Below are positions 2,556 to 42,800 of a stretch of DNA of 64,000 nt, piece after piece. The notes below the pieces were generated by a model. It did not search any database. It was not told where the DNA came from and saw only the letters and a list, made by a program, of their open reading frames with translations. Every line of letters begins with the position of its first letter. Position 1 is the first letter of the stretch. Both the position numbers and the translations under genes were made by a program. This DNA is from Pelobates cultripes (taxonomy: Eukaryota > Chordata > Amphibia > Anura > Pelobatidae): the NCBI GenBank assembly GCA_933207985.1, contig OW240914.1, positions 283,822,470 through 283,886,469 of the forward strand, given 5' to 3'.

Positions 2556-3830
2556 AAACACTCACACACAGCACCCTCAGACACACACAGCACTCAGACA
2601 CACACAGCACTCAGACACACAGCACTCAGACACACACAGCACCCAGACACACACAGCACTCAGACACACACAGCACCCAAACACACACAGCACTCCAGCA
2701 CCCAGACACACACAGCACTCAGACACACACAGCACTCAGACACACACAGCACCCAAACACACACAGCACCCAGACACACACACCTCAGACACACACAGCA
2801 CCCAGACACACACAGCACCCAGACACACACACAGCACCCAGACACACACAGCACCCAGACACACACAGCAACCCAGACACAGCACTCAGACACACACATA
2901 ACCCAAACACAGCACTGTGACACACAGCAACCCAGACACACACACACCCAGACACACACAGCACCCAGACACACACACAGCACCCAAACACACACACAGC
3001 ACCCAGACACACACACAGCACCCAAACACACACAGCGATCCAAACACACAACGACCCAGACACACAGCAACCCAGACACACCCGACACACAGCACCCAGA
3101 CACACAGCAACCCAGACACACGTTAACTCAGACACACGTTAACCCAGACAATGTTAACCCAAACACACATCCAGACACAACAATGTTAACCCCAAACACA
3201 CATCCAGACACACAGCACCCAGATCACCGTTAACTCCAGACACACACAGCCATCCAGACACACAGCACCCAGACAATACGACCCAGACACACACAGCACC
3301 CAGACACAACAGCACCCAGACACACACAGACCCAGACACAACACCAGCACCCAGACACAGCAACTCCCCAGACACACAGCACCCAGACACACACCCAGAC
3401 ACACAGCACCCAGACACAGCAACCCCGACACAAAGACCCAGACACACAGCTAACCCAGACACACAATCCAGACACACACAGCACCAGACACCAGACACAG
3501 CACCCAGACACACAGCACCGAGACACACAGCACCCAGACACACAGCACTCAGAAACACACAGCACCCAAACACACACAGCGCACCCAGACACACACAGCA
3601 CCCAAACACACACAGCGCACCCAGACACACACAGCATTCAGACACACACAGCGCACCCAGACACACACAGCACCCCCAGACACACACAGCACCCTCAGAC
3701 ACACACAGCACCCTCAGACACACACTGCTCACTCAGATAGACACTGCTCCCTCAGAGAGACAGCACCCTCACTCACACAGCACCCACACACAGCACACTC
3801 CCACACATATACAGCACACACATACACATA
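2556..3830. repeat. CA-rich minisatellite (CAGACACACACAGCACC-like)
   Basis: About 1.3 kb of imperfect tandem units of 15-19 bases close to CAGACACACACAGCACC lies inside hAT-1. Long open frames on either strand here (Cys/Val/Leu-rich, or His/Thr-rich) are products of the repeat. A looser continuation with ACAC blocks and AGCATCCCT units runs to about 4250. Confidence 0.95.
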
Positions 3831-5901: not shown

Positions 5902-7574
5902 CAGGGCCACTACCAGAAATTTTGGGGCCCCTAACTGAGCTCAGGGGTGGAACCCCAGGGCCCGCCTCCAAAACTGCCCACAGAGACCGCCCACAGGAAT
6001 ACACACACAGACACAAACACATTCACAGATACAAAAGGACACAGATACACACACACACACACACACACACAGTGATACATACTAACAGACACACATACTG
6101 ATACGCGTATAGGCATACATACTGACACACACATACTGAGACATACAGACACACAGACACACAGGTGTACATAGTGACAGACACATACTAACATACATAC
6201 AGACACACATTCATAAGGACATACAGACACAGAAACATTCATAATGACATACAGACAGACAGACATACATTCATACTGGCATACAGACACTGACATCTAT
6301 ACACACATACATACACAGAAATGCATTGTAACTGGCATACATACATTCATACAGACACTGACATCCATACATACACACATTCATAATGACATGCAGACAT
6401 ACATGCACTGACATTCATACACACATAATGACATACAGACATACAGACATACAGACAGATATACATACATGCATACAGACATACATGCATACAGACATAC
6501 ATGCATACAAACATACATACATATAGACATACAGACATAGACATACAGACAGACATACAGGCAGACATACATGCATACAGATAGACATACAGACATACAT
6601 AGACATACAGACAGACAGACATACAGACATACATAGACATACAGACAGACATAGACATGCATACAGACATACAGACAGACATACAGACAGACATAGATAT
6701 ACACAGACATACAGACAGACATAGACATACAGACATGCATATAGACATACAGACAGACATAGACATACAGACAGACATACAGACATGCATACAGACAGAC
6801 ATACAGACAGACATAGACATACAGACATACAGACAGACATACAGACGTACATAGACATACAAACAGACAGACATGCATATAGACATACAGACAGACATAG
6901 ACATACAGACAGACATACAGACATGTTTACAGACAGACAGACATACAGACATGCATATAGATATACAGACAGACATGCATACAGACAGACATACAGACAG
7001 ACATAGACATACAGACAGACATAGACATATGCATACAGACAGACATACAGACATACAGACAGACATAGACATACAGACATGCATATAGACATACAGTCAG
7101 ACATACATACAGACATGCATTCAGACATACAGACATACAGACAGACATAGACATACATATAGACATACAGACATACAGACATACATAGACATACAGACAG
7201 ACATACATAGAAATACAGAGCTCATTTTCCAGCCACCCTCCTGTCTCTTACCTTGTCTTTGCAGGAGGGTGGCTGGGGCTGATGGGGGTGGGAGTCAGCT
7301 GGCTCTCCCTCTTCACTGCTGGGCGCGCGCTTCCTCCCAGCAGCACTTGCGCTGCGGCAGCATTTTTTTTTTTTAAAAGGGGCCTGGTCGCGCTATACCA
7401 CGGCTACAGCGCTGACCGGGCCCCTGAAGATATAGGGCCCATCGGGTGGCCCTAAGTGCATGGGCCACTCAATAGGCCCCATCAGCGTGCGGGCCCCGGT
7501 GCAAGTGTACCAGTGGCAGTTCCGCAGCAACACGTGGGGCCCCGGCAGCCGGGCCCTCCAGGGCCGCTGGGCCC
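5902..7574. mobile_element. hAT-like insertion inside Tc1-1
   Basis: It starts CAGGGCCACTACCAG at 5902 and breaks the Tc1 transposase. The right end near 7574 is GC-rich and without a clean inverted repeat; the flanking 8-mers (GCTGAAAG left, GTGATAAC right) are only loosely alike. The interior is a long simple repeat plus a GC-rich block (7225-7574). No coding capacity is recognised. Superfamily is inferred from the CAGGGCC start. Confidence 0.55.
6000..7215. repeat. ACAG/ACAT minisatellite
   Basis: After an AC run (6044-6071) the sequence becomes imperfect tandem arrays of CATACAGACAGACATAGA-type units. Both strands look open over hundreds of bases (Met/Cys/Val/Ser-rich or His/Thr/Asp-rich), which is a product of the tetranucleotide repeat and not coding. 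Confidence 0.95.
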
Positions 7575-16335: not shown

Positions 16336-16493
16336 AGATATCCCCTGGACTGCAAGGAAGGGGAGGCATGACTGCTGCCCTGCAGTAAGGGGTGGGAATA
16401 TAAAAGATACAATGTTGCCTATATAGTGGGATATAAGAGGGAGATCAAGGGGGTGGGACTCACCAGTGCAGAAGGAGCAGTCTGGAACAGTTT
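16336..16493 (+). repeat. Ngaro-A repeat A1 with possible TATA box
   Basis: The left 158-bp repeat is near-identical to A2 (21524-21681). It contains TATAAAAG at 16399-16406, a candidate core promoter for the genomic RNA, and TGACTGCTG at 16369-16377, the inverted partner of the CAGCAGTCA that ends each B repeat. Ngaro-B has the same layout but no TATA box at this place. Confidence 0.85.
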
Positions 16494-16611
16494 TCAAAGT
16501 TTCAGAGCCCTTTAGCTTCTAGCCTTCTGCTGTTAAAAAAAAAAAAAGAATTTAGTTAGAATTTAGTTACTTTACTCCAGTGTTAACTGCAAGCTAGGCC
16601 TTCCCTGCAAG

Positions 16612-18227
16612 ATGGCTGAATTGTCAAGGGAGGCTTTGCTGGGGGTGCTGCAGGCCTACCTGGCGTCCAATGGATCCGGTTCTCTGGCAGAGCTGATGGC
16701 CGACCTTCCCCAGGCCCGCATGGCCGTGGAGCAGCCGGTGGCGGAGACCCCTTCTCTGGCCCGCGGGAGGAGGCCGAGCGGGCAGCAGTCGGCGCCGGAG
16801 CATGGAGGCGGTGATGGCGGATCCCGGGCTTCCAGGAGGCAGCCGCGGGTGGTGAGAGCTGCGGTGAGGCGGGCCCAAGATGGCGGAGCGCGGGAAGAGC
16901 GCTCGCGCAGTCCTCCTTCTCTTCCGGTCTGGCAGGAAGTGATGCATCGACGTCACAAGGGGCGCGTACGTGACGGACGCACGGCGCACAGTGCGGACGT
17001 CACAGGCCCCACCGGAGAACCTGGAAGTGCGTGAAAATGCGGCGCCGGAGCCCCAGGGGAGCCGTGGGGGCGCCCAAGATCGGGATCGGAGGGCTGTACA
17101 GCCCAGGAGAAGGCTGGGGGCGGATGCCCTGCAGCAAGGAGAGCCCAGAACTCGGGGACTGCCGGACAGGAGTCCAACATGGGACAGCATCCAGAGGAGG
17201 CTGCAGGAGGACTCAGAATCCGGATCAGAGGAGGAAGAGTTGGACCATAGGACGGCTCCCAGACCTCGCCAACCTGAGCAGGCTACCGTGGCAGCTCCAC
17301 TAAGCGGTGAGTTGGCTTGCGCTAGCGCTTGGGGTAGCCTAGCTGGGGGACAGGGTGCGCTAGGGCAGGAGCAGGCTGCGGATAGGGAATTGTTGCGCTT
17401 GCTCAGGGCAGTGGTAGATAGGTTTCCAGCTGCGCATAGCCAATCAGGGGACGTGCGCAGGGTGCTGGAGTCGGCTCCAGCTGATAGGGCTCAGGCGGGG
17501 GGGGTTCCGTCCCTCTCTACCGGGTTGTGAACTGTCCCCCTTGGGCATGCATGTCCCAGGGGAGACGCGGGATAAGATTATTAAAGGGGAATTTGTGGAC
17601 TTTTTGTCCCTGGTTTCCCCGGACAGGGATTCTGTGGATCGACCACGTCGTGGCGAGCCACAGGACCCCGAGAAGGGTAAGCAAATCCCACGAACGTTTG
17701 GGAATTGGTTACAGGGTTTCGCGGTTTTCGCAAGTATTCTGACCCGTCGGTTCCCGGATAGGGCGCCGCAGCTGTTCGGATACTTGGATCTGATTTGGGG
17801 TGCGTATAAGGTGTATGGCGGGCAGAGCTGGTTCCGTTACGACCAGCAGTTCCGGCAGAAGATGGCGGCGTGTCCTGGATTGGACTTCGGCACGCAGGAT
17901 GGCAGCCTGTGGCTGTTGCTCATGACGCCTAGTCGTCCGGCGTCTTTTCCAGGGGCAGCCGGCGCCGGCGCCGGAGCTTCCTCCGGTGCGCCGGCTGGGC
18001 AGAAAAGGGGAGTGTGCTGGCTCTTCAATGAGAGCCACTGCAGGTGGTACTCCTCCTGTAGGTTCAAGCACGAGTGCTCACATTGCGGAGGGGCTCACCC
18101 CGCCATGAGATGCTTCAAGAAGGCGAAGCAGTCCATTCCCAAGGCAGGGTCACGAGAGGATGGTTCCAAGGGGGAGGACACCAGTGAGCGTGGCAAGGAT
18201 GTTGCCATGGCTCGAGGCCTACCCTAA
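16612..18227 (+). pseudogene. Ngaro-A gag, frameshifted
   Basis: Gag would be the structural RNA-binding protein of the particle. The ATG at 16612 follows the A1 leader and starts MAELSREALLGVLQAYLASN, similar to the Ngaro-B Gag start. The frame passes from phase 1 (16612-17034) to phase 2 (to 17530) to phase 3 (17541-18227), so at least two indels have occurred. The last part is well kept: GKQIPRTFGNWLQGF, GYLDLIWGAYKVYGG and a cysteine/histidine region ending in a CX2CX3HX4C knuckle. The codons GGT-AAG of GKQ (17676-17681) form a strong 5' splice site. The early part is very CpG-rich. Confidence 0.88.
16873..17035 (+). promoter_or_regulatory. Candidate internal promoter in Ngaro-A gag
   Basis: Within CpG-rich gag sequence lie CAAGATGGCGG (about 16876-16886, YY1 core-promoter type), AGGAAGTGA (about 16932-16940, ETS type) and two CRE-like GACGTCAC (about 16950 and 16999). 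Ngaro-B has the same order at the equivalent place. The motifs are seen; promoter function is inferred. Confidence 0.4.
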
Positions 18228-19667
18228 ACGCTGCAATGCCGCGGTGTTGGAGGAAGGGTTTTCAGTCGGATTCTGGATCCCCTTTGTCTCCTCGGCGGAG
18301 CCACGGTTGGCAGATAATCTTCGGTCGGTCAAGGGTAAGGAGGAAGTTTTGGGTGCCAAGTTGGAAAAAGAATTGTCATTGGGGCGCATGGCGGGGCCGT
18401 TTTCTTACCCCCCATTTCCCAACTTGCGGGTATCGCCCTTGGGGCTGGTACCTAAAAAGGAGCCTTGCTCCTTTCGGTTGATTCATCACCTGTCCTACCC
18501 GGCTGGGAGGTCGGTGAACGATGATATCGATAAGGAATTCAGCAGGGTGCGTTATGCTTCGTTTGACAGGGCCCTGTCATTGGTTAGGGAAGCGGGGTTG
18601 GGGGCTCTCCTGGATAAATCGGACATCGAATCGGCCTTTCGGTTATTGCCGGTTCACCCAGAATGTTATCACCTGCTGGGTTGTCAATTCCAGGGGTCGT
18701 TTTTCTACGACATGTGCCTTCCCATGGGTTGTTCGATATCGTGTTCTTATTTTGAAATGTTTTCCTCGTTTTTGGAATGGTCTGTGGTTCAGTATTCGGG
18801 TTTGTATTCGGTGATCTCGACGACTTCTTGTTTGTGAGTCCTCGGGAGGGTGACGGATGTTCTCGGTTGTTGGCGGCCTTCCGCGCAGTGTCCGCGTGGT
18901 TTGGCGTACCAGTGGCGGAGCAGAAGACGGAGGGGCCAGCCACTAGGCTGTCGTTTTTGGGCATCGAGATTGACACCGTGGACATGGTTTTTCGCTTACC
19001 GGACGAAAAGCTAATGGTCCTGCTCAAGCAGATTGACTTGGTAAAATCGGCTCGGAAGGTACAGTTGCGCACGATGCAAGTACTGCTGGGTCACCTAGCC
19101 TTTGCTTGCAGAGTCTTGCCCATGGGGCGGGCCTTTTGCCGGCGCTTGTCATTGGCGACGGTTGGTATCAGGGAGGCTCACCATTTTATTCGGGTGTCGG
19201 CCAAACTTAGGGCTGACTTGCAGGTATGGAGCGTCTTCCTGGGTAGGTATAACGGCCGATCATGCTGGTTGCGGGAAGCGGTTCCCAATGCCGAACTTGA
19301 ACTGTATACGGATGCATCGGGATCGGTAGGGTTTGGGGCTTACTTTCAGGGCAAGTGGTGTGCGGCTGCTTGGCCGGCGGCGTGGCGTGAGCTGGAGTTG
19401 ATGCAGAACCTTACGTTCTTGGAGCTGTTCCCCATAGTGGTGGCGCTAGCACTGTGGGGGGACGAATTGCGGAACCGGGTGGTGGTTTTTCACACGGATA
19501 ACATGAGTGTGGTCCATGTGATTAACCGATCATCGTCTGCATCTCCTCCAGTGCTGTCTCTCTTGCGTCACCTAGTGCTGCTGAGCTTACAGTTTAATGT
19601 GTGGTTGCAGGCTCGGCATGTTCCAGGGGTTTTGAATGTGGTGGCTGACTCTCTTTCTCGGTTTCAG
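17677..19667 (+). promoter_or_regulatory. Predicted intron joining gag to YR, Ngaro-A
   Basis: The predicted 5' splice site is AAGG|GTAAGC (exon ends 17676). The 3' site is a branch-like CTGAC, a pyrimidine tract and TTTCAG|TGGG (exon begins 19668). Joining G of the gag Gly codon to TG gives a sense codon and enters the YR frame exactly. The intron would be 1991 bases; Ngaro-B gives 1985 with the same signals. An alternative 3' site at 20637 would join gag to the hydrolase frame in the same phase. Confidence 0.5.
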
Positions 19668-19757
19668 TGGGACCGTTTTCGGGAGTCGGCCCCGGAAGCA
19701 GATCAGGAGGGTCTTCGCTGCCCGGCATACTTATGGGACCTGGTTTCGGAGGGCTGA
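18160..19757 (+). pseudogene. Ngaro-A reverse transcriptase/RNase H, frameshifted
   Basis: This polymerase copies element RNA. The frame overlaps the gag end by 68 bases in the +1 phase and has an ATG at 18160 that is conserved in Ngaro-B. RT motifs include PLGLVPKKEP, FRLIHHLSYP, LDKSDIESAFRLLPVHP and CLPMGCSISC. An indel just before 18815 shifts the frame immediately upstream of the LDDFLFV active site. The next frame runs to 19757 with LSFLGIEIDT and an RNase H carrying LYTDAS, LELFPI, FHTDN and VVADSLSR (the D-E-D-D residues). Its last 91 bases overlap the YR frame. Confidence 0.92.
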
Positions 19758-20627
19758 TGTCCTTGGTGTCGGCATCGTTGTCGGCGGCTACGTGGAAGGC
19801 ATACAGGTCGGTATGGGTAGGTTGGCTGTCGTGTGTGGAGGGGTCTGATCGTATGTCATCGGGGTCTGCCCGGTTCTCAGTGACGTTACGCTATATGAGT
19901 AGGCTCCTGGAGCAAGGTCAATCATGCGCGTCGGCGGAGAGAGCGCTGTCGGCTCTGTCATTTTGTTTCGGTTTCTAGGCTGGCGGGACATAACGAAGGA
20001 GTTTTGCCTGCAGCGGGTTCTGCGCTGTTGGAGGACCCAGAGGCGTCCGGACCGGCGGCGTCCGATTTCAGTGGAGCTGTTGTGGCAGTTGATGGGGGCA
20101 TTGCCGGGGGTCTGTGTCTCGGTATCAGAGAGTCGGTTGTTCCAGGTTAGTTTTGCGCTGTGTTTCTTCGGGGCATTGCGGGTGGGGGAGCTTGTCGCCC
20201 CAATCGCCGTTCGGTTTCTCCTCTCTTGCTGTCAGATGTGCGTTGGACGGATGGGTTTGTGGACCTGCATATCCGCAGATCCAAGACAGATCAAGCTGGT
20301 GCTGGTGTGTGGCTCAGGGTGGGGAGCTGTGGTGGTGAGTATTGTCCGGTCCGGCTCTTCCAACAGTATATGGCGAGTCGGCCAGCGGCGGCCTCATTGT
20401 TGGTGCATGCGGATGGGTCCCCGCTTACGCGTTTTCAGTTCGCATCAGTGTTGGGTAGAGCTCTGGTGGACTGCGGTCAAGATCCATCCGGGTTCTCGCC
20501 CCATTCCTTCAGGATCGGGGCCGCTACTCAGGCTAGCGGTATGGGTTTGGCAGGCTTGGTGGTGCAGCGATTAGGCAGATGGTCTTCTAGGCGGTTTCAG
20601 CTGTATGTTCGTCCACAATTGTTATAA
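19668..20627 (+). pseudogene. Ngaro-A tyrosine recombinase, frameshifted
   Basis: This integrase-like recombinase would insert a circular DNA copy. The frame opens after a stop at 19646-19648, has no ATG near its start and begins at a predicted 3' splice site (19668). It reads GPFSGVG...LVSASLSAATWKAYRSVW, shifts near 19970 to a frame with FFGALRVGELV (catalytic Arg), and shifts again before 20220 to a frame with RRSKTDQ (Lys), HSFRIGAATQ (HxxR) and LGRWSS...LYVRP (Tyr). All catalytic residues are present but spread over three frames. It ends with TAA at 20625-20627. Confidence 0.92.
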
Positions 20628-20637
20628 TTTGTTTCAG

Positions 20638-21284
20638 GTTGCGTCCCCCATTACGTATGGATCTTGGGGCATTCGTTTATATATTGGGCAGCTCGACGGG
20701 CTCAGTCTCGCTCCTATGGACGGAACCTAGGGATCTCCATGGACATAGCAAGGGTTCGCTGGAGGGGTGTTCGGGGTCTGTCCTGGAGTCAAGTCTATCC
20801 GGAGTGCGTGGCCCTGAGCAGGTTCGTGTCGGGGGCGGTTACAATTGTGATCCATGCGGGAGGTAATGATTTAGGGAGGGTTAGATCGGTGGATCTGATG
20901 CACTCTGTCAAGCACGACTTGGCCCGGTGTTTGGCACTATTCTCAGGTTGTACTCTGATTTGGTCGGAGATTGTTCCCCGTCCTGGCTGGCAGGTCTTGC
21001 CGCATGCCAAGGGCCTGGAGCGGAGCAGGCGCAAGCTCAACATGACGATCTCTCGGTTTGTGCGGCGGCTTGGTGGTGTGGCGGTTCGGCATGTGGAGCT
21101 GGAGGGGGACAATCGGAATTTGATGAGGGCGGACGGAGTGCACCTGAACCAAATAGGATTGGACATTTTTAATGCGGGTCTGCAGTCGGGTATAGAAAAG
21201 GCGCTGGCTGCGGGGGGCGCGATGCCGGGTAAAGAGAGGGAGGGCTGGCATCGCGGTGGCGGAGTTCCTGGCCAGCGCACGTAA
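20638..21284 (+). CDS. Ngaro-A SGNH hydrolase, intact frame
   Basis: A predicted SGNH/GDSL-type hydrolase, a known accessory protein of vertebrate Ngaro elements; its substrate is unknown. The 215-codon open stretch includes GHSFIYWA (block I, with GHS for the usual GDS), IHAGGNDLG (block III Gly and Asn) and ADGVHLNQIG (block V Asp and His). There is no ATG at the start: the frame is the same as that of YR and lies four codons after the YR TAA. It begins at a good 3' splice site, AATTTGTTTCAG|GT, in the phase fitting the gag splice donor. The stop lies 28 bases into repeat B1. It is the only unbroken gene of Ngaro-A. Confidence 0.82.
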
Positions 21285-22039
21285 TGCACGGAAAGGATTT
21301 GGGGAGTCGCAGCCTGCTAGGGCTGATGGCCGAAGGCAGGCTGTACGAACTCTGGATAAAGACTTGGAGTATCTGTCTGTTGGGTAGTCACCCCAACAGC
21401 TGACAGGTGGAAATGCTGGCTGTGTAAAAGTTTAATAAAGCTGTGGCCGTTGCCCTTACCCAACAATCAGGTGTCATGTCGTTATTGGGGGTAACGGTTT
21501 TGGGTATTTGGGGTCAGCAGTCAAGATATCCCCTGGACTGCAAGGAAGGGGAGGCATGACTGCTGCCCTGCAGTAAGGGGTGGGAATATAAAAGATACAA
21601 TGTTGCCTATATAGTGGGATATAAGAGGGAGATCAAGGGGGTGGGACTCACCAGTGCAGAAGGAGCAGTCTGGAACAGTTTCCCGCCCGCCCTCCCCCAA
21701 AAAAATTTCCCATGCTATGTGATGGTTTGGCTTGTGGTGTTGTTTGTTTCTGTTCTTGTTTTGTCACAGCTATGGCGGAGTTCCTGGCCAGCGCACGTAA
21801 TGCACGGAAAGGATTTGGGGAGTCGCAGCCTGCTAGGGCTGATGGCCGAAGGCAGGCTGTACGAACTCTGGATAAAGACTTGGAGTATCTGTCTGTTGGG
21901 TAGTCACCCCAACAGCTGACAGGTGGAAATGCTGGCTGTGTAAAAGTTTAATAAAGCTGTGGTCGTTGCCCTTACCCAAGAATCAGGTGTCATGTCGTTA
22001 TTGGGGGTAACGGTTTTGGGTATTTGGGGTCAGCAGTCA
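21257..22039 (+). repeat. Ngaro-A repeats B1-A2-B2
   Basis: B1 (21257-21523) abuts A2 (21524-21681); B2 (21773-22039) follows after a 91-bp unique piece. B1 begins inside the last 28 bases of the hydrolase gene. Each B holds a polyadenylation signal AATAAA (21434-21439; 21950-21955) in a block TTAATAAAGCTGTGGC that Ngaro-B also has. The junction of B1 and A2 carries CAGCAGTCA (21515-21523), 33 bases, then TGACTGCTG (21557-21565), a likely recombinase site. Confidence 0.92.
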
Positions 22040-22164
22040 TGCACATTCAATGACTAAGACTTAGCCCAAACAATAATTTTATGCAGGTGCAGACTAGATA
22101 TACGGATGGTGCGAATAGTCTATTGTTACCAAAAGTGGTATTGATGTGAAATATATACTATTCA
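22040..22164. other. Spacer between the two Ngaro elements
   Basis: 125 bp of AT-rich unique sequence between the two B2 ends. No feature is recognised. The elements converge on it, so transcripts running past either polyadenylation signal would be antisense to the other element. Confidence 0.8.
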
Positions 22165-22165
22165 T

Positions 22166-22992
22166 GACTGCTGACCCCGGACCAAAACTCCCACCACCCG
22201 TTGCCCAATAAATACACAACACCTTTTGTATGGGTAAGGGCAACGGCCACAGCTTTATTAACAGAATTAACATCGATTATCACCAGCGTCCACAACCTGT
22301 CAGCTGTTGGGGGATTACCAACAGACAGCTCTATCAAATGACCCACGAGTCCAATGCAGCCTGCCCCCGCCATCAGCTCTCAGCAGGCTGCGACTCCCCA
22401 AGCCGCTTGGGCACTTTCTTCCAAACCTCTTCGCTGGCCAGGACTACCGCGAGCTGTGACAAAACAAAGAAACAACAGCACACAACCAACAACAACACCA
22501 TCATAACAGACTATTTTTTTTTTTTTTTTGGGTGGGTGGGCGGGAAGCTAGCAACACTACACCTCTGCCCAGGAACTGGTGAGTACCCTCCCCTTTTTCC
22601 CCATCTTAATGTCCCCCATGTGTAACAATGTATCCCCTTGCGACCCAACCCCTTATCCCTGCCAGCAGTCATGTCCTCCCTTCCTTAAGATTTCCAGGGA
22701 GGTACTTGACTGCTGACCCCGGACCAAAACTCCTACCACCCCTTGCCCAATAAATACACAACACCTTTTGTATGGGTAAGGGCAACGGCCACAGCTTTAT
22801 TAACAGAATTAACATCGATTATCACCAGCGTCCACAACCTGTCAGCTGTTGGGGGATTACCAACAGACAGCTCTATCAAATGACCCACGAGTCCAATGCA
22901 GCCTGCCCCCGCCATCAGCTCTCAGCAGGCTGCGACTCCCAAAGCCGCTTGGGCACTTTCTTCCAAACCTCTTCGCTGGCCAGGACTACCGC
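22166..22992 (-). repeat. Ngaro-B repeats B1-A2-B2
   Basis: B1 (22708-22992) abuts A2 (22542-22707), and B2 is 22166-22450. Minus-strand AATAAA signals are at 22801-22796 and 22259-22254. On the plus strand the junction shows CAGCAGTCA (22663-22671), a 35-base spacer, then TGACTGCTG (22707-22715): the same inverted arms as in Ngaro-A. A run of T (about 22513-22529) lies between A2 and B2. Confidence 0.92.
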
Positions 22993-23007
22993 CACCGCGG
23001 TTCCTCC

Positions 23008-23592
23008 CTACCTACTCCCCTGGGAGGGACCGCGCCCCCCCGCAGCCAGCGCCTCCTCAATACCTGCCTGAAGACCCGCATTCAGGATATCCAATCCTAT
23101 GAGGGAAAGGTGTACCCCATCCTTCCGCATCAAATCGGAATTGTCCCCTTCCAGCTCCCTGTGCCTAATGACAAAACCGCCAATCCGGCGGACAAATTTT
23201 CCGATGGCCACGTTGAGCCTGCGCCTACTACGCTCCACGCCCTTAGCATGCGGCAGCGAACGCCAACGCGGCCTGGACACTATGTCCGACCAGATCAGGG
23301 TCAACTCGGGAAAAAGAGCCATACACCGAGCCAGATCGTGTCTAATCGCATGCAGGAGGTCCACAGACCTACTGCGCCCCAGGTCATTTCCCCCTGCATG
23401 AATTACTAGGGTCACTGGCCACGCACTCCGAATACAGCTGCTGCCACAACATACCCCTAATACCCCTCCACCTTACCCTGGCTATCTCGTAGGAAAAACC
23501 CAAATTCCTCCCGTAGGGATGCTCCTCAGCTCGCCGCGCCGCCCAATAAACGTAGGAATGTCCCAGAATCCAAATGCAGCGGGGCCGAGGAC
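23008..23592 (-). pseudogene. Ngaro-B SGNH hydrolase, deleted/frameshifted
   Basis: On the minus strand the frame starts at 23592, just after a 3' splice site TTTCTCCGTAG|GT, and reads CIWILGHSYVYWAARRAEE (block I GHS) and VRWRGIRG. Near 23415 about 23 bases present in Ngaro-A are missing and the frame changes. The rest reads VIHAGGNDLG (block III) and KDGVHLSLIGLDILN (block V) and stops at 23008, just before repeat B1. The first part is in the same frame as YR and follows its TAA by five codons. Inactive as it stands. Confidence 0.85.
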
Positions 23593-23608
23593 CTACGGAG
23601 AAATTGGA

Positions 23609-24574
23609 TTATAATAAATGAGGTCTGACATAGGACCTGTAGCGCCGTGAACCCCATCTACCCAAGCGCTGAATCGCTGTGTCCGAGAAACCCCACAAAC
23701 TAGCCTGGGTGGCCGCCCCTATCCGAAAAGAATGAGTAGAGTAATGGCGAGGATTCACCCCGCATGCAACCAAGGCAGCACGGAACCTAGCTGAGAACTG
23801 ATAACGAGTGAGGGGGGACCCATCCCTATGAACCAAAAAGGAGAAACACCACACCGGCCTATTCTGCAAATACTCTGAGAAAAGACGGACCGGACAAAAC
23901 CTACCTCCCGTGGCACCGATACGCACCCATGAACCCCTACCTACCTGGTCTGTCTTGGAACGCCGTATGAAAACATCTACATAGTCCTCGGACCACCGGA
24001 TATCCGCCAGAAGCAGCGGCCCCACCGCCCAACGATTGCGTGCCACCAACTCGCCCACCCTAAAAGCTCCAAAAAAACAAAAAACAAATGCAATCCGAAA
24101 TAATGAGGCTTCGTAGTCTGAAAAACAAACTGCCCCCAGAGCCGCCAGGATCCGTCCCAGCAAGTCGGCTGACACCGGGCGGCGGCGGTCTGGGGCCCTC
24201 CTAAGTCTCCAACCCCGAATAACACGCTGTATACCGAACCACCGAGAAACGTCTTGCCAACCCATAGACCGACAAAGAAAGGATAGGGCGCTCAATGCCT
24301 TCTCAGCCGCAGAACAGGACTTACCCTGCGCAAACATCGACTCCAACAGTAGCAGAGTCGCCTCCAAGCGCCCGGACTCCGACCCCAGCACCAGGCCCTG
24401 CGAAAACGAGGACAGCCACGTCCGCCAGACGGCTTGGTATGCCTTCCAGGAAGAGTCAGCTAAGGAGTCCGACACCAAGCTCCTCAATCCTCCAAATCGA
24501 TCTCCCATAAGGAAACCGGACATCGGATACCCACTGCCTCCGCGGCTGGCGCCGACTCCCGAAAACGGTCCCAC
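23609..24574 (-). CDS. Ngaro-B tyrosine recombinase, intact
   Basis: A recombinase of the integrase/Cre fold expected to insert circular element DNA at a target without making a duplication. The open frame has 321 codons with the full catalytic set: R172 (FGAFRVGELV), K207 (RRSKTDQ), H281 and R284 (HSFRIGAATQ), W307 (LGRWGS) and Y315 (SYVRP). The first codon is GTG and no ATG opens the frame; it overlaps the RNase H end by 91 bases, as in Ngaro-A. A 3' splice site ends at 24574, so translation as a gag-spliced fusion is likely. It ends with TAA at 23609-23611. Confidence 0.92.
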   Translation of the reverse strand: MGPFSGVGASRGGSGYPMSGFLMGDRFGGLRSLVSDSLADSSWKAYQAVWRTWLSSFSQGLVLGSESGRLEATLLLLESMFAQGKSCSAAEKALSALSFLCRSMGWQDVSRWFGIQRVIRGWRLRRAPDRRRPVSADLLGRILAALGAVCFSDYEASLFRIAFVFCFFGAFRVGELVARNRWAVGPLLLADIRWSEDYVDVFIRRSKTDQVGRGSWVRIGATGGRFCPVRLFSEYLQNRPVWCFSFLVHRDGSPLTRYQFSARFRAALVACGVNPRHYSTHSFRIGAATQASLWGFSDTAIQRLGRWGSRRYRSYVRPHLL

Positions 24575-26090
24575 TGAAACCGAGAAAGAGAGTCAGCTAC
24601 CACGTTGTGAACACCTGGGACATGACAAGCTCTAACCCAAACATTGAACTTTAAGGAAAGAAGTACCAACCGTCGCAGTAGCGCAAGAACTGGAGGGGAA
24701 CTGGAGGTTGAACGGTTTATCACATGGACAACACTCATGTTGTCCGTGTGAAAAACTACAGTCCTGTTGGCCAGAGCCTCCCCCCAGAGCTCCAAAGAGA
24801 CAACGATGGGAAACAGCTCCAGAAACGTCAGGTTGCGCATAACATTAAAACCCCGCCATTGTGCTAGCCATGCCTCCGCGCACCACTTACCCTGAAAATA
24901 TGCCCCAAAACCCACGGAGCTGGATGCGTCCGTGAAGAGGTTCAACTCCAAGTTAGACGCAGCCTCCAGCAACCAGCAGGAGCGTCCATTGTAGCGCTCC
25001 AAAAAGGAGCTCCACACCTGGAGGTCCGCGTGCAGACGCCGCGTGACTCGGATAAAATGAAAAGGCTCCCGAACCCCTACCGTGGACAAAGAGAGGCGCC
25101 TGCAGAACGCACGTCCCATGGGAAGAACTCGGCACGCGAAGGCCAAGTGCCCCAGAAGCACCTGCATTTGTCGCAACTGCACCTTCCTCGCCCCACGAAC
25201 CAGGTCGATCAGCCGCAAGAGGACCGACAGCTTCTCGTCCGGCAGCCGGAAAACCATACCGACAGAGTCGATCTCAATCCCCAAAAAAGACAAAACCTGA
25301 ACCGGGCCCACCGTCTTAGCCTCTGCAACGGGGACCCCGAAATATCCCATAACTGCCCGAAACGTTTGTAAAAGCGCTCACACTCACCCGAACCCAGAGG
25401 GCCAACGAAAAGGAAGTCATCCAAGTAATGAGTAGCAGAATCCAAACCCGCCTCCTGTCTCGTTACCCATTCGAGAAAACAAGAAAACATTTCAAAATAA
25501 AAACACGAAATAGAACAACCCATGGGCAAACACATGTCGTAGTAAAAAACCCCTTGAAAAAAACAGCCTAGTAGGTGAAAACAGGAGGGGTGAACAGGCA
25601 ACAGACGGAAAGCTGATGCTATGTCAGATTTCGCCAACAAAGCACCTTGCCCGGCCCGACGAACCAACTCCAAAGCCCTATCAAATGATGCATATCGCAC
25701 GCGACAGATGTCCTTGCCAATGGCATCATTTACCGACTCACCCGACGGGTAAGACAGGTGCTGGATCAAACGAAAGGAACCTGGGTCCTTTTTGGGAACC
25801 AAGCCCAGAGGGGAAATCCGTAAGTTAGGAAAAGGTGGCGCACTAAACGGGCCAGCCATGCGACCCGCCTGCACCTCCACCTGCAATTTTTGTTGTAAAA
25901 TATCTTCTTTGCACTTAACCGAGCGGAGATTGTCCGCGAACTGAGGCAAGGAAGAAGAAACAAATGGGATCCAGAAACCTACCTGAAAACCGTCAAACAA
26001 TGTCTGTGCATCGCGACCCCTAGGATACCGGGCGAGCCACGGGAACATCCTTAGGGCGTCCACCGGCGTCCTCTCCCCTAGGTATGTCAT
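24484..26090 (-). pseudogene. Ngaro-B reverse transcriptase/RNase H, one frameshift
   Basis: The frame overlaps the gag end in the +1 phase; an ATG at 26090-26088 matches the one in Ngaro-A. RT motifs: PLGLVPKKDP, FRLIQHLSYP, LAKSDIASAFRLLPVHP, CLPMGCSISC and HYLDDFLFV (active site). A single indel near 25350, after YKRFGQLW, moves the rest into the gag phase: GVPVAEAKT, LSFLGIEIDS and an RNase H with LFTDAS, LELFPI, FHTDN and VVADSLSR, ending at 24484. Only this one lesion separates the gene from an intact state. A programmed shift is unlikely because Ngaro-A is broken elsewhere and reads through this point. Confidence 0.92.
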
Positions 26091-26558
26091 CTCGAGAGGG
26101 ACCCTTTCCAGACACTGGCTTCCCCTTTCGGAAGCAGCGCACAGCTGGGTGCGCTCCCCCGCAGTGTGCACATTCATGGCGGAACCTGCAGGAGCTGTAC
26201 CAGCGGCAGTGGCTCTCATTAAAGAGCCAACACACACCTTTTCTCTGCCCTGCTGAGGAGCCGGAGGTCCCTCCGGCAGGCCCGGGAAAGGGGGATGGTC
26301 TACTGGGAGTCATAAGTAACAGCCAGAGACTGCCATCCTGTACGGCGAAATCCATACCCGGGCACACCGCCATCTTCTGTCGGAATTGCTGGTCATAGCG
26401 ATACCAGCATTGCCCGCCATATATTTTATAGGCCCCCCAAATTAGATCTAAGTACCCGAACAGGGCCGGAGCCCTATCCAGGAACCGGCGCACTAGGATA
26501 CTGGCAAATATGTTAAACCCCTGCAACCAATTACCAAAGGTTCTGGGTATCTGCTTAC
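24574..26558 (-). promoter_or_regulatory. Predicted intron joining gag to YR, Ngaro-B
   Basis: The donor is AAAG|GTAAGC (exon ends 26559, minus strand). The acceptor has CTGAC, a pyrimidine tract and TTTCAG|TGGG (exon begins 24573). The joined codon is GTG in both elements, so 389 Gag codons would be fused to YR. The alternative acceptor ending at 23593 joins the hydrolase frame with the hybrid codon GGT. Intron lengths are 1985 and 2966; Ngaro-A gives 1991 and 2961. Confidence 0.5.
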
Positions 26559-27726
26559 CTTTATCCGCCTCGGGAACCTCCCCACGGCGCGGTCTGTCCA
26601 CTGAATCCTTGTCGGGAGAGACCAAGGACAGCAGATCCACATACTCACCTCTCCAAATCTTCTCTTGCATGTCCATAGGGACATGCAAACCTAACGGTGC
26701 AAGATCACATCCCACCGAACCGGCACGAAAAGCCCCTGCGGCAGGCTGACCCCTAAGGGTTTGGGAACATCCTTGCACCTGACCCTCAGCCTGCCCTGGG
26801 AGACCCTGTCCCTGAACCCCTCTATTATCCAGCCCAGTAAGATGTGAAGGGAAAGTGGCCACTAGGGTCCTAAGCAGGCGCAAACACTCACTAGCCTGAT
26901 CCTGGGCCCCAGTCCCTGGCACGCCAGCGCAATGTAACAACTCACCGGACCGCTGGGGAACTGCTGGCACCGACACCTCCTCTTCATCAGACCCAGAATC
27001 CGACCAAGAGCTCCTAGGGACATCTCCAGCTGGACCTGAGCCGTGCTCCAGGTGAACATCACCGAAACCGGCTGCCTCAGGGTGATGGGGGTTGAGTCCG
27101 GACGTCTGGGCGCTCCTGTGGTCTCCTCTTCTTCCTGCCGACCGCCCTCTGCGTCCGGCGCCCTGAGAACTCCGTGTTCTGGGCCGGGCGCCGACGTTAT
27201 GAGTCACTTCCGGGTGCACGACGCCGCCGGTGTGCGTCACTTCCGGGTGCCGTGGTCCGCCGGGGCGCGTCACTTCCGGTTGCGCCCGATGATGACGTCC
27301 GGTGGCTTGACGCACGCCGACGCTGCCGCTCACTTCCGGCGTCCTCTCTCTTCCCGCCGTTGGGACCGGAAGAGACGGCGGGCTACGAGATCTTCCCGCC
27401 ACGCCGCCATCTTGTCCACCAACGATGATGGCCTCCACCGGTCTCCTACCACGTCTCGCCGGGGAAGACCTGGCGGCGGCAAGCAGCACATCCCGCTGGC
27501 GACCTCTACGCCTGGACACCGGACTGGGGGACAGGCGCGTAGGAGGCCTGGAACGCCTGGCCCTCCTACCGCCATCCAACGGGAGCAACGAAGATCCTGA
27601 AGCTGCAGCAGGAGCCGGGCGGTTATCCACCCCAGCGATCACCTCCTCCAAAGCACCGGATCCATTAGAGTCAAGGTACGCCTGCAATAAGGCTACCACA
27701 TCTTCCCTTGATACAGCTGAAGCCAT
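26020..27726 (-). CDS. Ngaro-B gag, intact
   Basis: A predicted 568-residue nucleocapsid-type protein that would package element RNA. The ATG at 27726-27724 lies just after the A1 leader. The N-terminal part (MASAVSREDVVALLQAYLDS) is followed by an Arg/Pro-rich low-complexity region with repeated HPEVT phrases, a conserved core (GKQIPRTFGNWLQGF, FGYLDLIWGAYKIYGG, WYRYDQQFRQKM) and a C-terminal Cys/His region with CRWYSSCRFRHEC and a CX2CX3HX4C knuckle. The C-terminal 70 bases overlap the RT frame. The Gly-Lys codons at 26559-26554 form a 5' splice site (AAAG|GTAAGC). About 400 bases into the gene are YY1-, ETS- and CRE-like motifs on the coding strand. Confidence 0.9.
   Translation of the reverse strand: MASAVSREDVVALLQAYLDSNGSGALEEVIAGVDNRPAPAAASGSSLLPLDGGRRARRSRPPTRLSPSPVSRRRGRQRDVLLAAARSSPARRGRRPVEAIIVGGQDGGVAGRSRSPPSLPVPTAGRERTPEVSGSVGVRQATGRHHRAQPEVTRPGGPRHPEVTHTGGVVHPEVTHNVGARPRTRSSQGAGRRGRSAGRRGDHRSAQTSGLNPHHPEAAGFGDVHLEHGSGPAGDVPRSSWSDSGSDEEEVSVPAVPQRSGELLHCAGVPGTGAQDQASECLRLLRTLVATFPSHLTGLDNRGVQGQGLPGQAEGQVQGCSQTLRGQPAAGAFRAGSVGCDLAPLGLHVPMDMQEKIWRGEYVDLLSLVSPDKDSVDRPRRGEVPEADKGKQIPRTFGNWLQGFNIFASILVRRFLDRAPALFGYLDLIWGAYKIYGGQCWYRYDQQFRQKMAVCPGMDFAVQDGSLWLLLMTPSRPSPFPGPAGGTSGSSAGQRKGVCWLFNESHCRWYSSCRFRHECAHCGGAHPAVRCFRKGKPVSGKGPSRDDIPRGEDAGGRPKDVPVARPVS
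27203..27415 (-). promoter_or_regulatory. Candidate internal promoter in Ngaro-B gag
   Basis: On the coding (minus) strand: CAAGATGGCGGC (27414-27403, YY1 type), then CCGGAAGTG (ETS type) at 27339-27331, 27279-27271, 27246-27238 and 27213-27205, three of them at an exact 33-base spacing, some followed by ACGC to give an ETS/CRE-half composite. A CRE-like GGACGTCATC lies near 27299. The region is CpG-rich. Confidence 0.42.
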
Positions 27727-27830
27727 TCTCCCGATGCCAGATGAGGGAAAGGTAGGTAAGTAGAAAAAGCAAAGTGAATGAAATTAATAAATGAAAATAT
27801 ATATATATTTTTTTTTTTTAACAGTCCCAG

Positions 27831-27996
27831 GGGAAGCTAGCAACACTACACCTCTGCCCAGGAACTGGTGAGTACCCTCCCCTTTTTCCCCATCTTAATG
27901 TCCCCCATGTGTAACCATGTATCCCCTTGCGACCCAACCCCTTATCCCTGCCAGCAGTCATGTCCTCCCTTCCTTAAGATTTCCAGGGAGGTACTT
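27831..27996 (-). repeat. Ngaro-B repeat A1
   Basis: The left 166-bp repeat of Ngaro-B is nearly identical to A2 at 22542-22707. On the minus strand it shares with the Ngaro-A repeat the phrases AAGGAAGGG, CATGACTGCTG and ACTCACCAGT, although most other bases differ. No TATA box is evident. Confidence 0.9.
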
Positions 27997-29650: not shown

Positions 29651-31618
29651 CAGCACAGCTCCAGGCCCAGTCCCATGGAATAGGCCCACTGATTTTTAAA
29701 AAAATATATATTTTTTATTTTTATTTTTTTACTCACTACTCTTAGGGTTGCCAGGTATTTCTCATGTATTTCTTATGGTTGCCAGGTATTTCTCAGAAGT
29801 ATTTCTCAGGTATTTGAGGCTGCCTAGCCGGTGCGGGTATTGCAGTAATAAACAGAGTATAAACAGAGATTATTCTGCAATACCAGCTCTGGCCAGTAGG
29901 GGTCGCTCTTTGTATGGAGAGAGGCAGGGATAAGAAGTTACAGCATCTGCCTCCCTGCCTCTCTCTACTCATTGATCCACAGGGGAGCAGCTCTGCACAG
30001 AGAGGCCAGACAGCAGCTCCGAGCCTGCGAGACATGGGGATGTTGAGAGACTTGGGGACGCTGAGACAGTGGGACACTCGGAGACATAGGGACACTGGGG
30101 AACAGTGGCCCCATGTCTCCCAGTGGCCCCTAGTCTCTCAGTGTCCTCATGTCTCTCCAGCCAGTGTCCCTAGTGTCTCAGTGTCCCCATGTCTCCCAAT
30201 GTCCCTGGTGTCTCTCAGTGTCCCCATGTCTCCCAGTGTCCTTGGTGTCTATGTCCCTAGTCTCCCAGAGTCCCCTAGTCTCTCAGTGTTCCAATGTATC
30301 TCAGTGTCCCCATGTCTCTCCCAGTGTCTCAGTATCCCCATGTCTCACAGTGTCCCAATGTCTCTAAGTGTCCCCTAGTGTCCTAATGACATCGGGACAC
30401 TGGGAGACATGGGGATACTGGGGGACACAGGGATAGATGAAGACACTGGGCAACTTTGAGACCTGGGAGACATGGGGCACACCCAGTGTCCCCATGTCTC
30501 CCAGCGAGTGTCCCTAGTATTTTAGTATCCCCATGTCTCCCAGTGTCCCTGGTGTCTCTCAATGTCCGTAGTGTGCCAGTGTCCCAGTGTCTCAATGTCC
30601 CAATGCCTCCCAGTGTCCCCATGTCTCCTAGTGTCCCCTAGTATAAAATAAAAAATCTCAGGCACTCACTGTGATAGATTTAAGCAGGTTTATTGGACAC
30701 TGCAACGTTTTGACCTGTATCAAGTCTCCAGTGTCCCCTATGTATCACAGTGTCCCCTATGTATCAGAGTGTCTCAGTGCCCCATCTCTCCCAGTCTCCC
30801 TGGTTTAGCTCAGTGTTCTTAGTGTCTCAGTGTCTCCTAGTCTCTCAGAATTCCCTAGTCTCCCAGTGTCCCCATGTCTCACAGTGCCCCCAAGTGTCTC
30901 AGTGTCCCCTAGTATAAAATAAAACAATCTCAGGCACTCACTGTGATAGATTTGAGCAGGTTTATTGAACACCGCAACGTTTTGTACCCAGGTCTTTATC
31001 AAGTCTCCAGCATCCCCTATATATCACAGTGTCTCCTATGTATCACATTGTATCAGTGCACCATGTCTCCCAGTGTCCCCTCATGTCTCAAAGTCACCCA
31101 GTGTCCCCATGTCTCCCAGTGTCCCCAAGAGTCTCAGTGTTTCCAGGTCTCCCAGTGTACCCTAGTATCTCAGTGTCCCCAGGTCTCCCAGTGTCTCTCA
31201 ATATCTCCTAGTGTCCTAGTGACATGGGGATACTGGGATACATGGGGACACAGACACTAAGGGACTGGGAGACATGGGGACACAGAAATGCCCCATTTTT
31301 GTGTATGTTCGTCCCTTTCGGCACTTCTGGTTATGTGATTTGTGTCAGTGGCCCACCCTTTTACCCCATCCATAGACTTCCTGAGTTACTGGACACTGCT
31401 GTTAGGGGTATGGGTTTACTTGAAAGCATGAGATTAGCATAGGGTATGTGTTTTCTCATAGCTGCATCCTATGAGTTTCCCTCCTGCACCATCTCCATCA
31501 GATACATGATGCTTAGGAGGTAGGACTGTTTTAGTGTCTTTGGTCAATAAGATTTTGTAATTAGGCCCATGATAATTGTCAGCACCAGGCCCACTAGGCT
31601 CTTAATCTGGCCCTGAAT
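29650..31618. mobile_element. hAT-like block with minisatellite
   Basis: The left side has CAGCTCCAGGCCCAG and the right side ends AATCTGGCCCTG (31604-31615), which inverted reads CAGGGCCAGATT, a hAT-style end. No matching duplication was found, so borders are approximate. The interior is minisatellite plus two copies of a 120-base piece (30641-30760; 30912-31040). No transposase. Confidence 0.45.
30030..31290. repeat. CCCAGTGTCCCCATGTCTC minisatellite
   Basis: Imperfect units of about 18-20 bases (CAGTGTCCCCATGTCTCC) switch orientation near 30385, near 30475 and at about 31215. A higher-order duplication of about 270 bases includes a segment with GATAGATTTRAGCAGGTTTATTG and the AACGTTTT motif. 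Open frames here (Ser/Pro/Val/Cys) are artefacts of the repeat. Confidence 0.9.
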
Positions 31619-39802: not shown

Positions 39803-42800
39803 ATTATTATTATTATTGCCATTTATATAGCGCCAACGGATTCCGTAGCGCTTTACAATATTTTGAGAGGGGGGGGTGTAACAATAAATAGGACAATTAC
39901 AAGAAAACTTACAGGAACAATAGGTTGAAGAGGACCCTGCTCAAACGAGCTTATAGACTATTGGAGGTGGGGTATTTGAAACATTAGGACAATAAATATC
40001 AAGTAGGAGTGAAGCAGAGCTGGAGGAGAGAGCAAAGCACTGTCCCATAGGAGAGAGCAGGAGACAGGTATGTAAGGTAGAGATTACTCTGGGAGGCCAT
40101 AAGCTTTCCTGAAGAGATGGGTTTTAAGGCCCTTCTTAAATGATTGAAGACTAGGGGAGAGTCTGATGGCAGTAGGCAAGCTATTCCATAGGAGAGGAGC
40201 CGCCCGCGAGAGGTCCTGCAAGCGCGAGTTGGCCGTACGGGTGCGAGCAGCGGTCAGGAGGTGGTCACGGGCAGAGCGGAGGGTACGTGGAGGGGCATAT
40301 TTATGGATCAGTGAAGAGATATAAGCGGGGCTAGAACTGTTCAGTGCTTTAAATGTATGGGTTAGCACTTTGAATTGACTCCTATAGCATACAGGGAGCC
40401 AATGTAAGGACCGGCAGAGGGGTGAGGTGTGAGAGGACCGACTAGAGAGGAAAATCAGTCTAGCTGCAGCATTCATTACAGACTGTAGCGGGGCAATACG
40501 GCTTTTGGGGAGACCAATCAGGAGAGGGTTACAGTAATCCATGCGGGAAATTACTAGAGCATGGACAAGCTCCTTGGTAGCATCTTGCGTAAGAAAGGGG
40601 CGAATGCGGGCTATGTTTTTTAGTTGGAACCTACAGGACTTGGCAACAAACTGGATGTGAGACTCAAAGGTGAGACCAGAGTCAAGTATGACGCCAAGAC
40701 AGCGCGCTTGCAGGGATGGACTTATGTGGATATCACTGACTTGAAGGGAGAGCGAGAGAGGAGGATCAGTATTAGGAGGAGGAAAGACAAGGAGTTCAGT
40801 TTTAGAGAGGTTAAGTTTCAGAAAGCGTGAAGACATCCAGTCAGAGATGGAAGAAAGGCAAGCAGTGACACGCTGCAGGACAGCAGGGGAGAGGTCCGGG
40901 GAGGAGAGGTATATCTGAGTGTCATCAGCGTACAGGTGGTAGTGGAATCCAAAAGAGGCAATCAGTTTACCAAGAGAGGCGGTATAAAGAGAAAATAGAA
41001 GGGGACCAAGGACAGACCCTTGGGGAACTCCAACCGAGACAGGACGAGTGGAGGAGGTATCCTTGGAAAAGGAGACACTGAATGAGCGTTGGGAGAGATA
41101 GGAGGAAAACCAAGAGAGGACCGAGTCACAGAGACCGAGCGATTGAAGAGTTTGAAGGAGGAGAGCATGATCAACGGTGTCAAAGGCAGCAGAGAGGTCA
41201 AGGAGAATTAATATGGAGTAATGACCTTTGGATTTAGCGGAGATTAGGTCATTAGTCACTTTGATAAGAGCAGTCTCAGTAGAGTGGAGAGGGCGGAAGC
41301 CAGACTGAAGAGGGTCAAGGAGAGAGTTGCAATTAAGGAAGCGGGACACACGGGTAAAGACAATCCTTTCCAAAAGCTTTGATGAGAAAGGGAGCAGGGA
41401 TATGGGACGATAGTTAGAAGGGGAGGATGGGTCAAGAGATGGTTTTTTCAGGATAGGTATTACAGTGGCATGTTTAAGGTCAGCAGGAACAGTGCCAGAA
41501 GAGAGAGAGCAGTTAAAGATGTGTGTTAGGGTAGGCACAAGACAAGGGGAGAGAGATCTGATGAGGTGAGATGGGACAGGATCGAGCGGGCAAGTGGTGG
41601 GGCGAGAGGAATGGAGAAGCGCAGCCACCTCTTGTTCAGTAGCTGGGTAGAAAGTCTGGAGGGTAGGGAAAGCAAGATTTACATGTGGTTGAGAAAGAGA
41701 ACGGCAAGGAGGGGAGAATTGTTTCCTTAGCTGTTCAATCTTGTCGGTAAAGTAGCATGCAAAGCTATCAGCTGTAAGGTTAGTTTGGGGGGTGGCCACA
41801 GCAGGGCGGAGAAGGGAATTAAAGGTGTCAAAGAGGCGTCTGGGATTGCGGGAGCATGAACTAATGAGAGAGGAAAAGTATGACTGTTTGGCGAGGGCGA
41901 GGGCTGCGCTGTATGAAAGCAACATGAATCTATAATGGAGAAAGTCTGCCTGGGTGCGGGACTTCCTCCAGGAGCGTTCAGCACAACGGGAGCAACTCTG
42001 CAGATAGCGTGTTGATTTATTATGCCAAGGTTGGGGTCGTGTCCTCCTCGAGGTGCATGTTTTGAGCGGGGCTGCAGCGTTCAAGGCAGATGTGAGGGTA
42101 GTGTTATATGTGGAGATGGCCAGTGAGGGACAGGAGAGGGAAGGGATGGATAGCAGTTGTGAATCAATGTCAGCTGACAGCTGCTTGAGGTCAATAGAGT
42201 TAAGGTTCCTCCTGAGCTGAGGGGGGTTAGGCTGAGATTGTTGGGTGAGGGGGTAATTGAGAGCAAATGATAAGAGGTGGTGATCAGAGAGAGGAAATGG
42301 GGTGTTGCAGATATTAGATATTGTACATGAAGAAGAGAAAATAAGGTCGAGGGTATTGCCAGCTACATGAGTGGGAGAATTAGCCCACTGCAAAAGTCCA
42401 AGGGAGGAAGTGATTGAAAGTAGTTTAGAGGCTGCTGGGGTCAAAGGTGGGTTAACGGGAATATTGAAGTCTCCAAGAATTAGGGATGGGATGTTGGAAG
42501 AGAGGAAGTAGGGTAGCCAGGCAGCAAAGTGGTCAAGGAAGAGGAGAGGGGAACCAGGGGGACGATAGATTACGGCAATGTTAGCAGAGAAGGGTTTGAA
42601 AAGGCGAATTGAATGAATTTCAAATGATGGGAAAGAGAGGGAAGGGGGGGTAGACAGGGTTTTAAAGGTGCAGTGGGGTGAGAGAAGAAAACCTACACCG
42701 CCACCTTTAATCTCTGCTTGTCTTGGGTTGTGGGTAAAGTGAAGACCACCAAAAGACAGTGAGGCAGGTGTAGCAGTATCAGAGGGAGAGAGCCATGTTT

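Follow-up and report, generated by a model that had tools for sequence, protein, structure and literature searches.

Background

The closest described relatives of the elements considered here are DIRS-53_XT and DIRS-54_XT, Ngaro-like elements of Xenopus that carry gag, reverse transcriptase/RNase H (RT/RH), tyrosine recombinase (YR) and SGNH open reading frames (ORFs) together with A1-B1-A2-B2 split direct repeats, and whose ORFs are ATG-defined and, in the parts of the paper covered, described as overlapping (PMC9210276). DIRS1-like elements are also YR-encoding retrotransposons, some of them with a long RT/YR overlap according to the sections covered (PMC3266345), and the single mention of splicing in the covered text of a further paper concerns trans-splicing in trypanosomatids (PMC6681497). 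In the portions of the papers covered, the expression of a YR without a conserved start is described as ORF overlap alone. The present analysis concerns a stretch of 64,000 nucleotides of the frog Pelobates cultripes (GenBank assembly GCA_933207985.1, contig OW240914.1, positions 283,822,470 to 283,886,469 of the forward strand; hereafter the window, in whose coordinates all positions are given), which harbours two diverged and decayed Ngaro-type elements arranged tail to tail: element A (16336..22039, forward strand), a degraded copy, and element B (22165..27996, reverse strand), both delimited by direct repeats and reading frames. The two elements share the repeat arrangement of their Xenopus relatives and, with a presumed RT/RH, their ORF set, and their sequences suggest that the YR is probably expressed through a spliced message.

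Results

We propose, with a probability of roughly three in four (about 0.74), that the tyrosine recombinase of these Ngaro elements is translated from a spliced mRNA as a fusion of the N-terminal part of Gag to YR (hereafter GagN-YR), with RT/RH lying in the intron. Translation would start at the gag AUG, and a U2-type intron would run from a G|GTGAGT donor placed in the Gag linker, which is variable and acidic (exon end 17306 in A and 26946 in B), to a TTTCAG|TGGG acceptor where RNase H ends (exon start 19668 in A and 24573 in B), leaving a hybrid GTG (Val) codon at the junction. Such splicing would remove the CA-like and zinc-finger parts of Gag as well as RT/RNase H, and the product in B would comprise 260 Gag codons, one hybrid codon and 320 YR codons. 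Gag and RT/RH would be made from the RNA left unspliced, which would also be the template copied by reverse transcription, while the shared Gag N-terminus could tether YR to the particle or carry it into the nucleus. The proposal is built on the splice signals and their phase, the nucleotide conservation of the acceptor, the fact that both halves are open in B, and similarly shaped frog gene models, from which we infer RNA splicing in this species.

The acceptor block, located at 19644..19690 in A (forward strand) and 24551..24597 in B (reverse strand), contains the same sequence in both elements, namely a CTGAC branch-like site, a pyrimidine tract and TTTCAG|TGGG. The YR frame opens at 19649 in A and 24592 in B, after the TGA within CTGAC and 20 bases ahead of the exon start; both this in-frame stop and the acceptor had been pointed out by a first-pass annotation of the window, and both were found again at the same positions. 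The block is identical at 47/47 positions and forms the longest identical run of the A/B alignment, ahead of one of 31 in repeats; no other run within coding sequence exceeds 18. Identity is 24/24 in its intron part and 23/23 in its exon part, against 41/60 just upstream and 43/67 in the dual-coded stretch that follows; the flanks are 61-68% identical. At the codon level, 223 codons of RNase H encode the same degenerate amino acid in A and B; of these, 208 lie outside the block, where 38% are identical and the longest run is 4, and within the block 14 consecutive codons are identical (8/8 on the intron side). Since the constraint fades soon after the block, it is poorly explained by the RNase H protein and by dual coding, and well explained by a splice acceptor. 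All GT and AG of each element were scored with a splice-site matrix, by which the acceptor is unremarkable (rank 7 of 390 AG in A and 7 of 379 in B).

On the donor side, the preferred site of A (17301..17312, forward strand; intron start 17307) places G|GTGAGT over the Ser-Gly-Glu-Leu codons of the Gag linker, and that of B (26940..26951, reverse strand; intron start 26945) has the same G|GTGAGT in the linker. This site is kept in both elements although the surrounding Gag stretch is just 46-50% identical, and it ranks 2 of 424 GT in A and 3 of 434 in B. The first-pass annotation had put the donor at a G|GTAAGC over Gly-Lys codons, here assigned to the CA-like domain (17671..17682 with exon end 17676 in A, forward strand; 26553..26564 with exon end 26559 in B, reverse strand), with adjoining codons that differ at wobble positions, introns of 1991 and 1985 nucleotides and a hybrid GTG codon. 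The site and its wobble differences are indeed present, the intron lengths, phase and hybrid codon follow from its coordinates, and it is a possible alternative donor (rank 4 of 424 GT in A and 2 of 434 in B). Within gag, the linker and CA-like-domain sites are the only donors shared by A and B above the thresholds tried, and both are in phase 1 and yield GTG at the junction. When Gag codons were shuffled synonymously 3000 times, a shared strong donor appeared at the CA-like-domain site in 108 shuffles and at the linker site in 48, and two or more shared donors appeared in 0.3%.

The CA-like-domain G|GTAAGC was nevertheless rejected as the main donor and retained as a rival, because comparisons of Gags with fusions break at the linker Gly-Glu. 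Thus, the earlier idea of a spliced gag-to-YR mRNA stands for its acceptor, given the A/B conservation and the frog gene models, while its donor was probably misassigned and the linker G|GTGAGT is probably the main one. The related statement that the joining keeps frame in both elements holds only locally in A, which is frameshifted in gag, RT and YR. Altogether, an in-phase donor and acceptor conserved beyond the protein constraint were found, the donor side being the weaker, and splicing from gag into YR at the TTTCAG|TGGG acceptor is well supported by nucleotide conservation between A and B combined with the gene models of other frogs.

These gene models came from two YR searches (best 120 of 271 and best 120 of 224 proteins) and a Gag search (6 proteins), giving a set of 225 distinct proteins, 219 of which were from outside the Gag search. 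Many of the YR relatives named in the database are amphibian gene models with a long and often Arg/Ser-rich N-terminal extension, and the nearest named YR relatives among the matches listed are from frogs. A profile of the Gag N-terminus, built on the Gags of A and B and three Xenopus laevis sequences (cut-off E ≤ 0.01), matched 15 of the 219 YR proteins and none in a reversed-sequence control; according to record names, these 15 GagN-YR proteins belong to 11 frog species. A second profile, covering the CA-like domain, matched 4/219 YR proteins and 0/15 of the GagN-YR proteins. By eye, 8 of the 15 begin their YR part with Val-Gly, the others being variable or unclear, and at least 6 of the 15 carry an isoform label, which usually requires transcript support. 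The Gag segment kept in the fusion begins with a short conserved part, and a basic RPPxRLSP-like stretch is found in many of the fusions and in B. In Pseudophryne, the Gag P0125 and the fusion P0108 share 89% identity across 161 columns, the last of which lies just past Ser-Gly; from there P0125 continues with Glu-Leu in Gag and P0108 passes into YR. Among dendrobatids, the Gag reading in Dendrobates P0199 is TAPRQP-Gly-Glu-Ser, and the fusions P0179 and P0178 read TAPRQP|VG and TAPRQL|VG, respectively.

To locate where YR proteins start to agree, 36 proteins were compared in 49 pairs; each pair had a YR at least 70% similar over 150 columns and, in both members, 25 or more residues ahead of the aligned part, and positions were read from whichever of two mappings lay nearer. 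In 30/49 pairs, agreement begins no more than 6 residues from the residue homologous to the A/B hybrid Val; these pairs are non-independent, the 30 being drawn largely from a small number of families in Phyllobates, Dendrobates, Ranitomeya, Anomaloglossus and Lithobates. Upstream of the shared YR start, the sequences correspond to Gag linker, Gag CA, RT, RNase H or seemingly foreign exons, and because they differ in this way the acceptor appears constant and the donors variable. This pattern fits a real strength of the splice site, and it also fits the behaviour of gene finders around decayed copies. The first exons of three models (P0171, P0190 and P0205) look foreign to the element and are joined at the Ngaro YR acceptor, which suggests that this acceptor can capture outside exons.

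Several observations weigh against the proposed fusion or its linker donor. Element A could not itself make an intact fusion because its gag is broken, and the site scores by themselves are not outstanding; in B, the top-scoring donor is a third site, 26649, which is not common to A. The linker Gly-Glu is not universal either, since the linker of the Xenopus laevis Gags shows just a looser Gly-Gly-Glu and the metagenomic Gag P0124 has no recognisable one. Among the gene models, the GagN-YR protein P0164 keeps, by BLAST, the start of the CA-like domain, upstream of the 17676/26559-type donor, and enters YR inside the recombinase core; P0199, from which the unspliced linker reading was taken, itself retains CA and joins RT to YR; and in some models the donor falls in RT, RNase H, CA or an exon that looks foreign. 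In the pairwise comparison, 14/49 pairs converge only inside YR (with P0097, P0155, P0162, P0163, P0164 and P0167 involved) and 5/49 begin agreeing further upstream. Finally, these gene models are predictions, perhaps partly ab initio, and gene-finding programs would prefer any intron by which a long YR frame is opened.

This last point leads to the reading in which the fusions of other frogs stem from errors of gene prediction and the conserved block has some other DNA or RNA function, which would agree with the foreign-looking exons likewise fused to YR in P0171, P0190 and P0205. We consider it quite unlikely, as the junction falls at the same residues across species with similar exon-1 ends such as TAPRQP|V, and isoform labels recur among the GagN-YR proteins. 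Splicing from the CA-like-domain donor (intron 17677-19667 in A and 26558-24574 in B) would give a longer Gag-YR protein keeping part of the CA-like domain. Besides the presence and ranks of this donor in both elements and the rarity with which shuffling reproduced it, four dendrobatid YR models keep CA sequence, and two of them (P0196 and P0183) join Gag to YR at the same acceptor. However, its Gly-Lys is absent at that column in 6/6 other aligned Gags, three of them from Xenopus laevis, the GagN-YR proteins lack matches to the CA-like profile, and the codons around it vary at wobble positions, so that as the main route it is unlikely.

Two further readings would dispense with splicing and produce YR at the RNase H overlap. 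Compared with RNase H, the YR frame is shifted to -1 in A and B, as it is by ORF coordinates in three elements from other genomes (L001-L003, described below), and the conserved block sits at the start of the overlap, as a -1 ribosomal frameshift signal or a dual-coding signal would. Slippery heptamers (XXXYYYZ, with Y = A or T and Z not G) are, however, missing from B between 24641 and 24440, and the only one of A between 19600 and 19800, at 19627, lies upstream of the YR-frame stop; as no such heptamer is common to A and B, frameshifting was rejected. In addition, the identity extends over the very stop codon of the YR frame and drops off in the remaining overlap (see the 43/67 above), and the Gag-N fusions of the relatives bypass RNase H, all of which makes frameshifting very unlikely. 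Translation of YR from its own AUG (19733 in A and 24508 in B), with ribosomes reinitiating past the nearby RNase H stop or arriving by leaky scanning, would draw on an in-frame ATG at a matching place in both elements, shortly ahead of that stop and before the recombinase core. Indeed, contrary to the first-pass annotation, in which the YR frame has no ATG, in-frame ATGs precede the core at 19733 in A and at 24523 and 24508 in B. The homologous residue is nonetheless Met in only 30/101 related proteins (Val in 34, Leu in 21), and because Met is not conserved among relatives this start was rejected; it would also leave the conservation upstream of the ATG unexplained, and we regard it as highly improbable.

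Regarding the overall organization, both elements have a short A1 repeat at the 5′ end and B1-A2-B2 at the 3′ end, as in the split direct repeats of Ngaro-like elements (A, forward strand: A1 16336-16493, B1 21246-21523, A2 21524-21681, B2 21762-22039; B, reverse strand: A1 27996-27831, B1 22992-22707, A2 22707-22542, B2 22450-22165). Their aligned identity is 46-72% over the measured gag, RT/RH and YR stretches and 79% in the acceptor-bearing stretch. The gag of B (26020..27726, reverse strand) is open from the ATG at 27726, and its first 260 codons would form exon 1. A tyrosine recombinase ORF with frog homologues lies downstream of RT/RH in both elements, as expected of Ngaro-like elements: the YR exon is open in B (23609..24573, reverse strand) and interrupted by frameshifts in A (19668..20627, forward strand), and the matches to PF00589 (E 2.9e-5 for B and 6.1e-4 for A) are below the curated cut-off. 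The RT/RNase H region of A (18109..19757, forward strand) is frameshifted and would lie within the proposed intron except for its overlap with YR, and that of B (24484..26309, reverse strand) is frameshifted between 25377 and 25209; B has at least one frameshift in RT and one in SGNH, its gag and YR being open. A Pfam search of these RT/RH ORFs at 1e-3 gave no match, the two match each other, and we take them to be RT/RNase H from motifs such as YLDD and from their position. A possible RT start is an RT-frame ATG about 65-68 bases before the gag stop (18160 in A and about 26090 in B), and the RT frame of B has further ATGs upstream of ~26090.

As in amphibian-type Ngaro elements, an SGNH hydrolase ORF follows YR. 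In A, this SGNH/GDSL ORF (20638..21284, forward strand) matches PF13472 with an E-value of 1.4e-5, below the curated cut-off, and its homologue in B is split over two frames, this partial ORF matching no Pfam family. In both elements, an AG directly past the YR stop codon opens the SGNH ORF, giving a possible second acceptor of modest score: 20623..20640 in A (forward strand; exon start 20638, TTTCAG|GTTG, phase 1, rank 11 of 391) and 23590..23610 in B (reverse strand; exon start 23592, CCGTAG|GTCC, phase 1, rank 20 of 380). In two Spea models (P0198 and P0146), YR breaks off before its C-terminus and is joined to SGNH near this AG, and in the Leptodactylus model P0082 a complete YR runs straight on into SGNH; because YR and SGNH share a frame there, readthrough of a single TAA is an alternative to SGNH splicing. 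It is tentatively conceivable, though doubtful, that one Gag donor and two phase-matched acceptors yield both GagN-YR and GagN-SGNH, with the Gag N-terminus as a common tag to the particle or nucleus, and that this arrangement is old and reaches beyond amphibians.

A search of viral contigs for DNA of related elements found no relative, and a search of genome contigs gave 7 loci, of which L001-L003 were read (L004-L007 were left out). These three look like Ngaro/DIRS-type elements of animal hosts of symbionts, presumably a mussel, a tubeworm and a sponge. Each has an AG near the start of the YR frame in the same codon phase, which we count as weak support because AGs are common there and the best gag donors are elsewhere in gag; in 2/3, another AG scores equal or higher. 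L001 (5303 bases, from a Bathymodiolus symbiont bin) carries a Ngaro-like set of gag, RT/RH, YR and SGNH-like ORFs, and one gag stretch recurs at both of its ends, as though a circle had been assembled; it is probably host DNA in a bacterial bin.

Elsewhere in the window, an open non-LTR retrotransposon ORF of 1085 amino acids (40084-43341, reverse strand) with endonuclease (PF03372) and reverse transcriptase (PF00078) domains possibly marks a young copy. Long degenerate tandem arrays at 2563-3828 and 6114-7209 (17-base units; 4/8/12-base units) yield spurious long ORFs, and a tandem duplication of a 279-base unit (1.8 copies, 85% matches) occupies 30582-31079.

Discussion

If true, a spliced message joining Gag to the recombinase would account for the missing start of YR as well as for how the recombinase could travel with Gag, with no need for frameshifting. 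It would also imply that dividing a genome by means of splicing came about in a lineage of retroelements whose integration enzyme is a different one, and that a number of amphibian genes annotated as ‘xerD homolog’ or uncharacterised may be transposon splice products. The literature searched, partly covered, holds no description of Ngaro splicing, though one is possible in the classic Ngaro papers, which lie outside that coverage; what is new here is a Ngaro element whose recombinase is likely expressed by splicing.

Retroviruses, including foamy viruses, produce spliced subgenomic RNAs alongside an unspliced genomic RNA, and the Pol of foamy viruses is made from a spliced RNA. The arrangement proposed for elements A and B resembles theirs in having a 5′ donor, which in those viruses lies in or before gag, and an acceptor ahead of the downstream gene. 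It differs in that the integration enzyme is another one, with no descent being claimed, and in that the Ngaro product would keep an N-terminal segment of Gag. DIRS1-like elements differ from A and B by their inverted terminal repeats, and splicing and introns go unmentioned in the sections covered (PMC3266345). As for DIRS-53_XT and DIRS-54_XT, words for splicing or introns are absent from the main text as covered (PMC9210276), and it is to this otherwise shared organization that the present analysis would add a GagN-YR message.

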